From: Thermococcus sp. JdF3
Lineage (GTDB): Archaea > Methanobacteriota_B > Thermococci > Thermococcales > Thermococcaceae
Length of the DNA: 64,000 bases
Assembly: GCF_012027495.1 (NCBI RefSeq)
Contig: NZ_SNUK01000001.1
Span: 372,001 to 436,000 of the forward strand
Direction of reading: 5' to 3'
Numbering within the stretch: position 1 is the first letter of the stretch; each line of letters starts with the position of its first letter. The translations under genes and the position numbers were made by a program. Of this stretch, positions 17,708 through 54,908 are shown piece by piece. The notes beneath the pieces are model-generated. The model made no database searches. It saw only the letters and a list, made by a program, of their open reading frames with translations, and was not told the DNA's origin.

Positions 17708-18772
17708 ATGCTCGTCTGTTCACACTGCGGAAAGGTGTACCCCGAGACGTTTCGCCTGACCTGTGACTGCGGCGGCACTCTGCTTGTGGAGAGGGACCAC
17801 GTCGATTTCTTTGGTAGCCTCAGGCCCCATATTGATATGCGGCGCTACCTCAATTTCCTTCCGGTGGACGGGGATTACCTCCCTCCAGCAACGCCGGCGA
17901 TAACCCCTGTGAGCGCCCTTCGGATCGGCCAAGTCAGTGGGTTCCTCAAGCTCGAATACCTCCAGCCAACCGGTTCCTTTAAGGACAGGGGCACCTACGT
18001 GACGGTGGCGAAGCTGAGGGAGGAGGGCATCACCGAGGTCGTCCTCGACAGCTCCGGAAACGCCGCCCTGAGCTTTGCCCTCTACGGCCTCGCTTCCGGG
18101 ATCAGGGTTCATGGGTTCGTTTCCTACGATACAAGCCCCGGAAAGCTCTCACTCCTCCAGCGCCTTGGAGCGGTGATGCACTTCGTCGACGGTGACAGGA
18201 TGGCCGTTCACAGGAGGGCAGTGGAGTTCGCGGAGCGGAGCGGTCTGACCTACGTCTCCCACTGGCTCAATCCATACTTCATCGAGGGTACGAAGACGGT
18301 CGCCTTCGAGACCTACGAGCAACTCGGCGTTCCCGACTACGTCCTATCGCCGGTGGGCAGCGGGACGCTCTTCCTTGGCCTTTGGAAGGGGTTTAATGAA
18401 CTTAAGGACATGGATGAAATTGATAGGCTCCCAAGACTTGTGGCCGTTCAGGCTTCGGGCTACGAGAGCCTCTGCGAGCGCTCATCAATGAAGAACGACA
18501 CTGCGGAGGGTATAACGATTCCTGAACCTCCCCGGCTTCATGAGATGAAGAGGGCACTTAAGGAAACCAGCGGCCTGTGCGTAAGTGTGGATGAGCTTGA
18601 AACAATAGGCGCGCTCAACTGGCTCAAAAGACATGGCTTCCTCGTCGAGCCGACCTCCGCGGTGGTTCTCGCGGCGCTCTGGAAGCTAATGGAATCGGGG
18701 AAGATTGAGGGCGGGTCAAGAGTGCTCCTCCCGCTTACAGGCTCCGGGCTAAAGACGGTTGAAGGTATTTAA
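17708..18772 (+). CDS. Threonine synthase-type PLP enzyme
   Basis: Fold-type II PLP enzyme of 354 residues. A zinc-ribbon-like start (CSHCGKVY, CDCGG) precedes the catalytic domain. The PLP lysine is K92 in PTGSFKDRG, the asparagine of SSGNAALSFALYG contacts PLP, the phosphate loop is SPVGSGTLFLG, and the final LTGSGLKTVEG matches threonine synthase. It probably converts O-phosphohomoserine to threonine, although a related beta-replacing activity cannot be excluded. Divergent from udp. A second threonine-synthase-like protein at 53577 lacks the catalytic lysine, so this copy is the one in the window able to do the chemistry. Confidence 0.85.
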   Translation: MLVCSHCGKVYPETFRLTCDCGGTLLVERDHVDFFGSLRPHIDMRRYLNFLPVDGDYLPPATPAITPVSALRIGQVSGFLKLEYLQPTGSFKDRGTYVTVAKLREEGITEVVLDSSGNAALSFALYGLASGIRVHGFVSYDTSPGKLSLLQRLGAVMHFVDGDRMAVHRRAVEFAERSGLTYVSHWLNPYFIEGTKTVAFETYEQLGVPDYVLSPVGSGTLFLGLWKGFNELKDMDEIDRLPRLVAVQASGYESLCERSSMKNDTAEGITIPEPPRLHEMKRALKETSGLCVSVDELETIGALNWLKRHGFLVEPTSAVVLAALWKLMESGKIEGGSRVLLPLTGSGLKTVEGI

Positions 18773-50982: not shown

Positions 50983-51594
50983 TTGACTGAAAAGCTAAAG
51001 GGAACGACTACGGTCGGCATTGTATGTAAGGACGGCGTAGTCCTGGCAGCGGACAGAAGGGCATCGCTGGGCAACATGGTGCTCTCAGAGAACGTTACCA
51101 AGGTCTTCTGGATAGACGAACATCTGGCCCTGGCCGGTGCCGGCAGCGTCGGCGACATTCTCAGCCTCGTCAGGCTTCTGAGGGCCGAGGCCAAACTCTA
51201 CCGGGCCAAGGTGGGTAAGGAAATGAGCGTTAAGGCCCTCGCGACCCTGACTTCTAACGTGCTTCACGGGAGCAGGTTCATGCCGTACTTTGGGTGGTTT
51301 CTCATAGCGGGCCACACCGGAAAGCCCGGGCTTTATTCGGTGGACATGGCCGGCGGGGTTACCGAGGACAGGTTCACGGCCGCCGGTTCAGGTATGGAGT
51401 TCGCCTTTTCGATACTTGAGGCGGAGTTTAAGGAGGAGATGACGCTGGAAGAGGGCGTTAAGCTCGCGCTCAAGGCAATAAAAGCCGCCACCAGAAGGGA
51501 CGTTTTTACGGGCGGCGGCGTTACCCTCGTTACCGTTACGGATGAAGGATACAAAGAATGGAGCGAGGAGGAAATAAAGGGTCTTCTGGAATGA
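50983..51594 (+). CDS. psmB: Proteasome beta subunit
   Basis: Catalytic beta subunit of the archaeal 20S proteasome, 203 residues. After a seven-residue propeptide (MTEKLKG) the nucleophile threonine starts [22 protein letters not shown] carries the conserved aspartate-arginine region, and [10 protein letters not shown] and GGVTLVTVT are typical. Translation seems to start at TTG (50983), preceded by GGGGTGTTG. The TATA element is CTTTAAATACT near 50910. It lies directly upstream of fttA with an 11-base gap. Confidence 0.95.
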
Positions 51595-51604
51595 GGTGGT
51601 ACAG

Positions 51605-53551
51605 GTGATAAGAAGAGAGACCTTCGTCGATGATATACTACGCGACATAAAAGCTGTAATAAGCCAGATGGTCCCGCCCGAGGCGAGGATAACCGACGTT
51701 GAGTTCGAGGGTCCCGAGCTGGTCATATACGTCAGGAACCCGGAGGCCATAATGCGGGACGGGGAGCTGATAAAGAACCTCGCCAAGGTTCTCAAAAAGC
51801 GCATAAGCGTCCGCCCCGACCCGGATGTTCTCCTTCCGCCAGAAAAGGCGGAGGACATGATAAAGACCCTGGTTCCCGCCGAGGCGGAGATAACCAACAT
51901 AAGCTTTGACCCGTCCGTCGGTGAGGTCATCATAGAGGCCAAGAAGCCGGGTCTGGTTATCGGGAAGAACGGCGAAACCCTGAGGCTCATAACCCAGAAG
52001 GTTCACTGGGCGCCGAGGGTCGTCAGAACCCCTCCGCTCCAGAGCCAGACCATCTACTCGATAAGGCAGATACTCCAGGCGGAGGCGAAGGACAGGAGGA
52101 AGTTCCTCCGCCAGGCGGGCAGGAACATATACCGTAAGCCGGAGGTCAAGAGCGATTGGATACGCATAACCGGTCTGGGAGGCTTCCGTGAGGTCGGAAG
52201 AAGCGCCCTCCTTGTCCAGACCAACGAGAGCTACGTTCTGGTCGACTTCGGTGTCAACATAGCTGCCCTCCGCGATCCCAAGAAGGCCTTCCCGCACTTC
52301 GAGGCCCCGGAGTTCCGCTACGTCCTCGACGCGGGTCTCCTGGATGCCATCATCATAACCCACGCCCACCTTGACCACAGCGGAATGCTGCCCTACCTCT
52401 TCCGCTACAAGCTCTTCGACGGGCCGATATACACAACTCCTCCGACCCGGGATTTGATGGTTCTTCTCCAGCAGGACTTCATCGAGATTCAGAAGATGAA
52501 CGGCGTTGAACCTCTCTACCGGCCCAGGGACATCAAGGAGGTCATCAAACACACCATAACCCTCGACTACGGTGAGGTCCGCGACATCGCTCCCGACATG
52601 CGTCTGACACTCCACAACGCCGGCCACATACTTGGCTCCTCGATAGTCCACCTCCACATAGGCAACGGCCTCCACAACATAGCCATAACCGGCGACTTCA
52701 AGTTCATCCCCACGAGGCTCTTCGAGCCGGCCGTCAGCAGGTTCCCGCGCCTTGAAACCCTCGTCATGGAGTCCACCTACGGTGGAAGCAACGACTACCA
52801 GATGCCCAGGGAGGAGGCGGAGAAGAGGCTCATAGAGGTTATCCACCAGACCATCAGGCGCGGCGGAAAGGTGCTCATTCCGGCCATGGCCGTCGGTAGG
52901 GCGCAGGAGATAATGATGGTGCTCGAGGAGTACGCCAGGATAGGCGGCCTTGAGGTTCCGATTTACCTGGACGGCATGATATGGGAGGCGACTGCCATAC
53001 ACACTGCCTATCCGGAGTACCTCAGCAGGCACCTGCGCGAGCAGATATTCCACGAGGGCTACAACCCGTTCCTCAATCCGATATTCAAGAGCGTAGCCAA
53101 CTCACGCGAGAGGCAGGACATCATAGACTCCGGCGAGCCGGCCATAATAATAGCCACCTCGGGCATGCTCGTCGGCGGACCGAGCGTCGAGTACTTCAAG
53201 CAGCTCGCCTCGGATCCAAAGAACAGCATGGTCTTCGTGAGCTACCAGGCGGAGGGAACCCTCGGAAGGCAGGTGCAGCGCGGCCTCCGCGAGATACCGC
53301 TCGTCGGAGAGGGCGGAAAGACCGAGGTGGTCAACGTCAACATGGAGGTTCACACCATAGACGGCTTCTCCGGTCACGCCGACAGGAGGGAGCTCATAAG
53401 CTACATCGCGAGGCTCAGGCCCAGGCCGGAGCGCGTCATAACCGTCCACGGCGAGGCCCACAAGTGCCTCGACCTCAGCACGAGCATACACAAGAAGTTC
53501 GGCCTCTCAACGAGGGCCCCCAACAACCTCGACGCCATAAGGCTCAAGTGA
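51605..53551 (+). CDS. fttA: FttA / aCPSF1, archaeal transcription termination factor
   Basis: Beta-CASP ribonuclease of 648 residues with N-terminal KH domains, the archaeal CPSF73 homologue that terminates transcription. The KH part ends with KPGLVIGKNGETLRLITQKV (about residue 125); metal site HAHLDHSGM (about residue 255), GDFKFIPTRLFEPA, the beta-CASP segment ESTYGGSNDYQMPREEAE, and the final DGFSGHADRREL and VHGEAHKCLDL. The GTG at 51605 (then IRRETFVDD) matches the family start and has GAGGTGG upstream; the GTG at 51596 overlaps that site. Confidence 0.96.
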   Translation: MIRRETFVDDILRDIKAVISQMVPPEARITDVEFEGPELVIYVRNPEAIMRDGELIKNLAKVLKKRISVRPDPDVLLPPEKAEDMIKTLVPAEAEITNISFDPSVGEVIIEAKKPGLVIGKNGETLRLITQKVHWAPRVVRTPPLQSQTIYSIRQILQAEAKDRRKFLRQAGRNIYRKPEVKSDWIRITGLGGFREVGRSALLVQTNESYVLVDFGVNIAALRDPKKAFPHFEAPEFRYVLDAGLLDAIIITHAHLDHSGMLPYLFRYKLFDGPIYTTPPTRDLMVLLQQDFIEIQKMNGVEPLYRPRDIKEVIKHTITLDYGEVRDIAPDMRLTLHNAGHILGSSIVHLHIGNGLHNIAITGDFKFIPTRLFEPAVSRFPRLETLVMESTYGGSNDYQMPREEAEKRLIEVIHQTIRRGGKVLIPAMAVGRAQEIMMVLEEYARIGGLEVPIYLDGMIWEATAIHTAYPEYLSRHLREQIFHEGYNPFLNPIFKSVANSRERQDIIDSGEPAIIIATSGMLVGGPSVEYFKQLASDPKNSMVFVSYQAEGTLGRQVQRGLREIPLVGEGGKTEVVNVNMEVHTIDGFSGHADRRELISYIARLRPRPERVITVHGEAHKCLDLSTSIHKKFGLSTRAPNNLDAIRLK

Positions 53552-53576
53552 CAGCCTGGATTAAGAAGTGGTGAAA

Positions 53577-54908
53577 ATGAAGGTCCGCTGTCCGGGCTGC
53601 GGGCGCCTCTATTCTTCCCTTATTCCCCCCGGGTGCTCCTGCGGTGAGCGTCTGGAGATATCCTACGATTACGAGAAAGTTGACCCGTCCGGGTGGCGGA
53701 ACCGTGAACTCGGCGTCTGGAGATACAGGGAGCTTCTGCCGGACGTCCCCGAGGTCGTGAGCCTTCGGGAGGGGGGCACGCCCCTCATAAGGGCCAAACT
53801 CGGCCGCGAGCTTGGACTCAGCGTCTTCATCAAGGACGAGACCCGGAACCCCACCGGCTCCTTCAGGGACCGGCTCGCGACAGTCGCCGTCTCCCATGGC
53901 ATGCCCCACGCAGAAAACGGCTTTGTGGTTGCCAGCAATGGGAACGCCGCTGCGTCCCTTGCCGCGTACGCTGCGAGGGCCGGCAGGTCCGCCTACACCG
54001 TCGTGCCGAAGCTCGTGGAGCAGGGCAAGCTCAATCAGATAGTGGCCCTCGGGGCGAAGATCATACGATACGGGGAGAGCGTGGACGAGGGCATAAGCTA
54101 CGCGGAGGGGCTCGCGGAGGGCAAGGGGCTCTACAACGTCACCCCCGAGAGCAACCTCATCGGCCTGGAGGGTCAGAAGACGCTGGCCTTTGAGCTGTGG
54201 GAGGATCTGAATCCCACGCACGTGGTAGTCCCGACAGGGAGCGGCAGCAACCTTTACAGCATCTACAAAGGCTTTATGGAGCTCATTGAGGTGGGTGCGA
54301 TTGACGAGATGCCGAAGCTGATCGCCGTTCAGGCCGAGAAGTGCTCGCCTATAGCGAGCGAGGTGCTGGGGGTCGAACCCCGGGCCGAGCCGACCAAGGC
54401 GCTGGCCCTCTACGTCAAGAGCCCCGTCATGAAAGAGCTCGCCCTTGAGGCTATACACGCCAGCGGGGGAACGGCGGTTCTCGTCGGTGAGGACGAGCTT
54501 GACCTGGGGCAGCGGCTCCTTGCACGTGAAGGGATATTCGCGGAGTACGCCTCCTCGGTTATCGTTCCGGCACTCCTCAAACTCGCTGAGGAGGGTTATT
54601 TCGAACGTGACGATAGGATAGCCCTTATAGTGACAAGTTCGGGCCTCAAGGGGCATTATTCAGAGAGCAGGGAGAAGTTCAGCGTCGGCGGAACCAAGCT
54701 CGAGATACTGAAGCTGCTGAGCGGGGGGAGCATGTACGGCTATGAGGTGTGGGAGGCGCTGGAGAAGCCTCTCAGGTACCAGGCAGTTTACCAGCACCTT
54801 CGCGAACTCGAGAGCATGGGGCTTATCGAGGAGACCCACAGAAGGGGAAGACGGGTCTATTACGGGCTGACGGAGAGGGGCAGGAGGTTCCTTGAGACCA
54901 TGGGGTAG
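53577..54908 (+). CDS. Threonine synthase-fold protein lacking the PLP lysine, fused to a winged helix
   Basis: A 443-residue two-domain protein. Residues 1-35 hold a zinc ribbon (CPGC, CSC). Residues about 60-360 follow threonine synthase closely (REGGTPLIRAKL, NPTGSF, ASNGNAAASLAAYAARAG, VVPTGSGSNLYS, VTSSGLKGHY). The Schiff-base lysine of SFKDR is arginine (R97, codon AGG), so normal PLP catalysis is not expected, although the phosphate-binding loops remain. Residues about 370-443 form a PadR-like winged helix (MYGYEVWEALEKPL, AVYQHLRELESMGLIE, GRRVYYGLTERGRRFL). It probably senses an amino acid, PLP or phosphohomoserine and binds DNA. It follows fttA after 25 bases. Confidence 0.88.
   Translation: MKVRCPGCGRLYSSLIPPGCSCGERLEISYDYEKVDPSGWRNRELGVWRYRELLPDVPEVVSLREGGTPLIRAKLGRELGLSVFIKDETRNPTGSFRDRLATVAVSHGMPHAENGFVVASNGNAAASLAAYAARAGRSAYTVVPKLVEQGKLNQIVALGAKIIRYGESVDEGISYAEGLAEGKGLYNVTPESNLIGLEGQKTLAFELWEDLNPTHVVVPTGSGSNLYSIYKGFMELIEVGAIDEMPKLIAVQAEKCSPIASEVLGVEPRAEPTKALALYVKSPVMKELALEAIHASGGTAVLVGEDELDLGQRLLAREGIFAEYASSVIVPALLKLAEEGYFERDDRIALIVTSSGLKGHYSESREKFSVGGTKLEILKLLSGGSMYGYEVWEALEKPLRYQAVYQHLRELESMGLIEETHRRGRRVYYGLTERGRRFLETMG

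Follow-up and report, generated by a model that had tools for sequence, protein, structure and literature searches.

A threonine-synthase-like protein fused to a PadR-like winged helix is a predicted vitamin B6 regulator in Thermococcales and other archaea

What might a protein do that combines the fold of threonine synthase, an arginine at the position of the catalytic lysine, and a C-terminal winged helix? The question is raised by a gene in a stretch of 64,000 nucleotides of Thermococcus sp. JdF3 (contig NZ_SNUK01000001.1, positions 372,001 to 436,000, here C1:372001-436000), hereinafter the window, to which all coordinates refer unless a contig is named. The open reading frame extends from an ATG at 53577 to a stop codon at 54906-54908, with an alternative GTG start at 53568, and the 443-residue product consists of a PALP domain (residues 61-353, Pfam E 3e-66) followed by a winged helix of the PadR type (residues 377-440, PF03551, E 1.7e-9, 37.9 bits against a curated cut-off of 27), as a preliminary description of this DNA had suggested. 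The whole protein, winged helix included, matches the NCBIfam model NF004170/PRK05638, 'threonine synthase' (736 bits against a cut-off of 421, E 1e-221), which takes in this protein and its Thermococcales orthologues. The fusion is already catalogued, but with an enzyme name, and the activity that this name denotes is not supported by the sequence. We propose that the fusion is a one-component repressor that senses vitamin B6, probably PLP, a prediction to which we assign a probability of roughly 0.8. The relevant features are the following.

50983..51594, + strand: psmB, upstream neighbour (TIGR03634)
51596..53551, + strand: fttA/aCPSF1, 25 bp upstream of the fusion gene (TIGR03675)
53577..54908, + strand: PALP-winged-helix fusion gene, the proposed vitamin B6 regulator (443 aa, P0001; assigned by NF004170 and by orthologues)
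53589..53642, + strand: zinc-ribbon cysteines C5, C8, C20 and C22, invariant in the cross-lineage alignment A3
53757..54635, + strand: threonine-synthase-like PLP fold (PALP, 61-353), the proposed B6 sensor (Pfam; Foldseek with a low-confidence model)
53865..53867, + strand: codon 97 (AGG, Arg), position of the Schiff-base lysine (sequence and orthologue comparison)
53943..53945, + strand: N123, equivalent of the PLP-contacting asparagine of threonine synthase, invariant in A3
54162..54164, + strand: G196, where the true threonine synthases compared have arginine (NPxR-[LIV]-EGQKT), which is absent in all compared fusions
54231..54251, + strand: PTGSGSN (219-225), PLP-phosphate loop, with G221 and G223 invariant
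54633..54650, + strand: TSSGLK (353-358), with T353, G356, L357 and K358 invariant in A3
54705..54896, + strand: PadR-like winged helix (377-440; PF03551), the best-modelled part (pLDDT mostly 67-90)
54780..54809, + strand: recognition helix QAVYQHLREL (402-411), whose residue 402 varies in step with the base preceding the operator AAG

Both neighbours named in the preliminary description, psmB and fttA, are confirmed by their family assignments. The fusion gene and fttA are probably one transcription unit, and the proximity to psmB and fttA seems to reflect nothing more than co-transcription. The zinc ribbon and the SNGNAA, GSGSN and SSGLKG segments are all present, as described previously, and the best Foldseek match, obtained with a low-confidence structure model, is threonine synthase 2d1f (E 5e-20). 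The AlphaFold model, built from a shallow alignment, is weak in the PALP domain (mean pLDDT 64) and was kept out of the arguments on the pocket.

In threonine synthase, the equivalent of N123 contacts the O3' group of PLP, and in homologues T353 lies opposite the PLP ring nitrogen; these two residues and G221 and G223 are invariant across lineages in alignment A3. The Schiff-base lysine of SFKDR is missing: the sequence reads NPTGSFRDR, with AGG as codon 97, exactly as first noted. Arginine occupies position 97 in all Thermococcales orthologues that extend over it, except for lysine in two genomes of genus g2 (G002 and G003), and all six arginine codons are in use (AGG 34, AGA 17, CGC 6, CGT 2, CGA 2, CGG 1). 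Given this order-wide conservation and codon diversity, R97 is neither an error nor a private mutation, and the use of all six codons argues for selection that keeps the arginine. Another arginine, that of the NPxR-EGQKT motif, which in threonine synthase serves the substrate phosphate, is missing as well (SNLIGLEGQKT); it is missing in all fusions compared and is kept by the stand-alone synthases compared, apart from one encoded in the same window (17708-18754, L003). The latter (NCBIfam PRK08329, 'threonine synthase') had been taken for an intact threonine synthase, which is correct as regards SFKDR; given that NPYFIEGTKT replaces NPxR-EGQKT, its substrate may be other than phosphohomoserine. 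Its paralogue in L002 (G000:C7) keeps the arginine of the motif.

Loss of the lysine had also been regarded as the defining mark of the regulator, a view that comparison within the wider family does not support. The position holds arginine in families f2, f14, f115 and f28, lysine in f57, leucine in f65 and isoleucine in f42; the expected joint conservation of R97 and the winged helix is seen in Thermococcales, G002 and G003 excepted, but not in those fusions of other families that have lysine, isoleucine or leucine. The lysine-bearing orthologues (G002, G003 and f57) possess the same winged helix and the same genomic context or operator (see below), and the full-length ones have no threonine-synthase arginine motif, so that, judging from sequence, they also look like regulators. 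The lysine thus appears to be neither needed for the regulatory role nor excluded by it. Within genus g2, where the gene is distant from fttA, G001 has arginine at the site, and a recent change from arginine to lysine inside the genus is possible. In a tree of PALP domains, fusions and synthases are separated by branches with ultrafast bootstrap values of 99-100, and the lysine forms are nested inside the arginine group, so that either lysine may have been regained or arginine may have arisen more than once.

A protein search detected the fusion, complete or fragmentary, in about 68 of 94 Thermococcales genomes (including G052, where it lies at a contig end), and, genus g2 aside, it is located directly behind fttA wherever a single contig contains both genes. 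The regulator-less Thermococcus genomes probably share, for the most part, one loss. A clear second, separate loss, and no other such, is seen in G058, whose fttA, 96% identical to that of JdF3, places it in the regulator-bearing group and where the regulator gene, pdxS and the ecfS site have all been lost; a 259-aa ORF lies there at the place of the regulator, with fttA on one side and, downstream, the conserved gene for a membrane protein on the other (L274, G058:C7:1-2500). A profile search over other archaea, with several hundred genomes compared in all, identified fusions of the same layout in other archaeal families, and 214 genomes of the phylum of G224 yielded many more full-length ones. 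Beside one of these (L117), reading of an ORF identified a Rab-like GTPase gene, from which we infer that this phylum may be the Asgard archaea. A search of plasmid proteins returned only matches below 60% identity which, among the matches listed, end by about residue 382, before the winged helix. In f2 and f14 (L105-L108, L114), the fusion is found near apparent replication genes (GINS and MCM, from reading of ORFs), perhaps an old shared location; an ECF S gene was not seen near the fusion in f2.

Elsewhere, genes next to the fusion point to vitamin B6. At locus L118, pdxS and pdxT lie downstream of the fusion, and at seven of the other loci tested (L114, L116, L117, L120, L121, L122 and L124) the fusion adjoins an ECF S gene of PF07155 (ecfS); in the phylum of G224, such a gene occurs within about 1.5 kb at 23 of 30 loci, and pdxST at one. 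In Pfam, PF07155 is named a riboflavin transporter. The best solved relative of the JdF3 protein is HmpT (4HZU chain S, E 6e-17), the substrate of which has been identified as pyridoxamine (PMC4860826). The operator and the gene context suggest that the PF07155 S component of Thermococcales carries a B6 vitamer, not riboflavin. In the set of genomes with a completeness of at least 90%, all 52 that have the regulator also have ecfS, versus 12 of 23 that lack the regulator (p 3e-7); ecfS is kept in all 11 genomes without pdxS, as would be expected if it were a B6 salvage route, and is never absent together with pdxS. The presence of the regulator showed no significant association with that of pdxS (p 0.11-0.16), and a tie between the two was rejected, the link being with ecfS and the operator instead.

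The putative operator is an inverted repeat, TTCAAG-N6-CTTGAA, located upstream of Thermococcales pdxS at the 3' end of a TATA-like box. It precedes pdxS (at least 14/16) in 44 of the 47 genomes with the regulator and in none of the 22 without (p 4e-15), and ecfS (at least 13/16) in 50 of 58 and in none of 12, respectively (p 1e-8), although these p-values ignore the relatedness of genomes that are not independent and overstate the case, given that most regulator-less Thermococcus probably share a single loss. The ecfS site is weak or missing in 8 of the 58 regulator-bearing genomes, and the stricter cut-off of 14/16 was reached in 0% of shuffled upstream sequences. G052 was rejected as an exception to this rule, as the regulator is present there and cut by the contig end. 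In the 2.14-Mb genome of JdF3, the sole sites with no or one mismatch (C1:207562-207579 and C1:207586-207603) both lie upstream of pdxS; the predicted operator is TTCAAGTTTTTCCTTGAA, with a second copy 24 bp further on. The ecfS site (C5:42874-42891) has three mismatches to the consensus, a level at which the pattern search gave 30 matches in this genome versus 26 in the reversed control, so that weight is placed only on sites with 0-1 mismatches, and the case for the ecfS site is made by its conservation, not by the pattern match. Given the boundaries of the window, both targets lie outside it; members of the regulon beyond pdxS and ecfS were sought by pattern search alone. A palindrome at the gene's own promoter had been anticipated as well; no operator-like site was found beside psmB-fttA, and the single match in the window (5818, three mismatches) is at the chance level, so that autoregulation through an operator near psmB-fttA was rejected. 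The pdxS genes of regulator-less Thermococcus (G019, G020, G021, G033, G041, G050, G055, G065 and G067) have a different conserved imperfect palindrome near the promoter, such as TTCAGATTTTGATTTGAA, which may be either a decayed old site or a site of another regulator.

Upstream of ecfS in other lineages, the Thermococcales matrix detected sites in f14 and f28 (p 5e-4 each, the lowest value that the test can give) and in f115 (p 0.0025), and gave no significant result in f42, f57 and the f65 locus; f57 has a TAAG variant of the operator. In the phylum of G224, AAG-N6-CTT precedes ecfS at 17 of 23 loci against 1.2 expected, with 0-3 for other spacings. Residue 402 of the recognition helix is glutamine where mostly C or A stands before AAG, and alanine, proline or serine where T does (43 of 46 half-sites), a correspondence that may rest on few evolutionary changes. 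This covariation ties the PadR-like winged helix of the fusion to the AAG-N6-CTT repeat.

Under the proposed scenario, the threonine-synthase-like domain would have lost its chemistry and kept the pocket that holds PLP, so that PLP or a close B6 vitamer would be bound, probably non-covalently in the arginine, isoleucine and leucine forms. A dimer would contact the inverted repeat NAAG-N6-CTTN, in Thermococcales TTCAAG-N6-CTTGAA, through its C-terminal winged helices, and from the placement of the repeat over the pdxS promoter we infer repression, with occupancy of the site at the TATA-like box and of the copy 24 bp on blocking transcription of the PLP synthase gene pdxS. The related site before the ECF S component, a probable B6-vitamer importer, would bring transport under the same control: when B6 is abundant, the protein with its ligand bound would silence pdxS as well as ecfS, and under B6 shortage both genes would be open.

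Several other readings have to be weighed against this one. That the repeat is bound by another transcription factor and the fusion merely shares its distribution is unlikely: gains and losses common to related genomes mean that co-occurrence alone could mislead, but the pairing of repeat and fusion is seen in two groups that are far apart, in one of which the fusion lies next to the target genes, and the recognition helix of the fusion covaries with the repeat. A shade less probable is a regulator that acts on the same operator in response to another vitamin or precursor, for example, riboflavin, after which PF07155 is named, or hydroxymethylpyrimidine, once a candidate substrate of HmpT (PMC4860826); the operator in front of Thermococcales pdxS, the adjacency of pdxST in L118 and the fact that the sensor fold is a PLP-binding one all speak against it.

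The remaining readings stay closer to threonine. A regulator of amino-acid genes sensing threonine, phosphohomoserine or another amino acid would fit the descent from threonine synthase and the winged helix, but is quite improbable given that the substrate-motif arginine is lost, the best sites genome-wide are at pdxS and the neighbours in other genomes are pdxST and ECF S genes. That the protein functions as a threonine synthase, or as some other PLP enzyme, with the winged helix as a minor addition, is highly improbable: PRK05638 is an equivalog model and both fold and zinc ribbon are conserved, but many fusions have arginine, isoleucine or leucine for the catalytic lysine, none of those compared has the arginine that the true synthases compared keep, this genome encodes two other lysine-bearing members of the threonine synthase family, and context and operator concern B6 genes. 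The original idea of a dead enzyme turned sensor and regulator is strongly supported, PLP having been among the ligands listed for it, with vitamin B6, not threonine or phosphohomoserine, as the theme.

To our knowledge, fold type I, that of the MocR proteins, is the only PLP fold so far known in transcription factors. As the preliminary description pointed out, these bacterial parallels differ in fold from the present protein: MocR proteins combine an N-terminal helix of the GntR type with an aminotransferase domain of fold type I, whereas the fusion, which is archaeal and often without the lysine, has a fold type II PALP domain first and the PadR-like helix last. Authentic threonine synthases (2d1f, 2zsj, 1uim/1v7c) share with it the fold, the PLP-pocket asparagine, the Gly-rich loop and the threonine, but have the Schiff-base lysine and the NPxR-EGQKT arginine and no winged helix. 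RbkR and ThiR, also archaeal vitamin regulators, for riboflavin and thiamin, respectively, rather than B6, have folds that are presumably unrelated to the fusion family. Bacterial PdxR belong to the MocR proteins; they govern pdxST and pdxU, with PLP as the signal, and like the fusion they join a PLP-enzyme domain to a winged helix (PMC5320631). For the fusion, control of PLP synthesis and uptake genes is a prediction from operator, gene context and covariation. Several characterised PdxR activate pdxST, whereas the fusion is predicted to repress. RbkR, which carries an HTH domain at its N terminus, is listed both as a gene regulator and as an enzyme (PMC8305020), and predicted regulons of RbkR and ThiR have been described in Pyrococcus (PMC10746257). 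No archaeal B6 transcription factor or threonine-synthase fusion regulator was found in the open literature, outside which subscription journals mostly lie, and a 2023 survey states that for most species the B6 transporters have yet to be identified (PMC9997740).

The findings propose a B6 regulator for archaea and, by way of its operator, also a B6 importer, namely an ECF S component, and they correct the name 'threonine synthase' that the whole family bears in databases. We are inclined to regard the fusions of Thermococci and of a distant, probably Asgard, phylum as one family of archaeal B6 regulators derived from a fold type II PLP enzyme that turned into a PLP sensor, which would add this fold to those that serve in transcription factors. 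Given that the lysine position varies (R, K, I or L) while the B6 context is kept, with the operator in many lineages, covalent capture of PLP would be dispensable for sensing, and the natural series of arginine, lysine, isoleucine and leucine forms may show how a PLP pocket senses without the lysine. We rate the predicted regulator among the enzyme-derived cofactor regulators.
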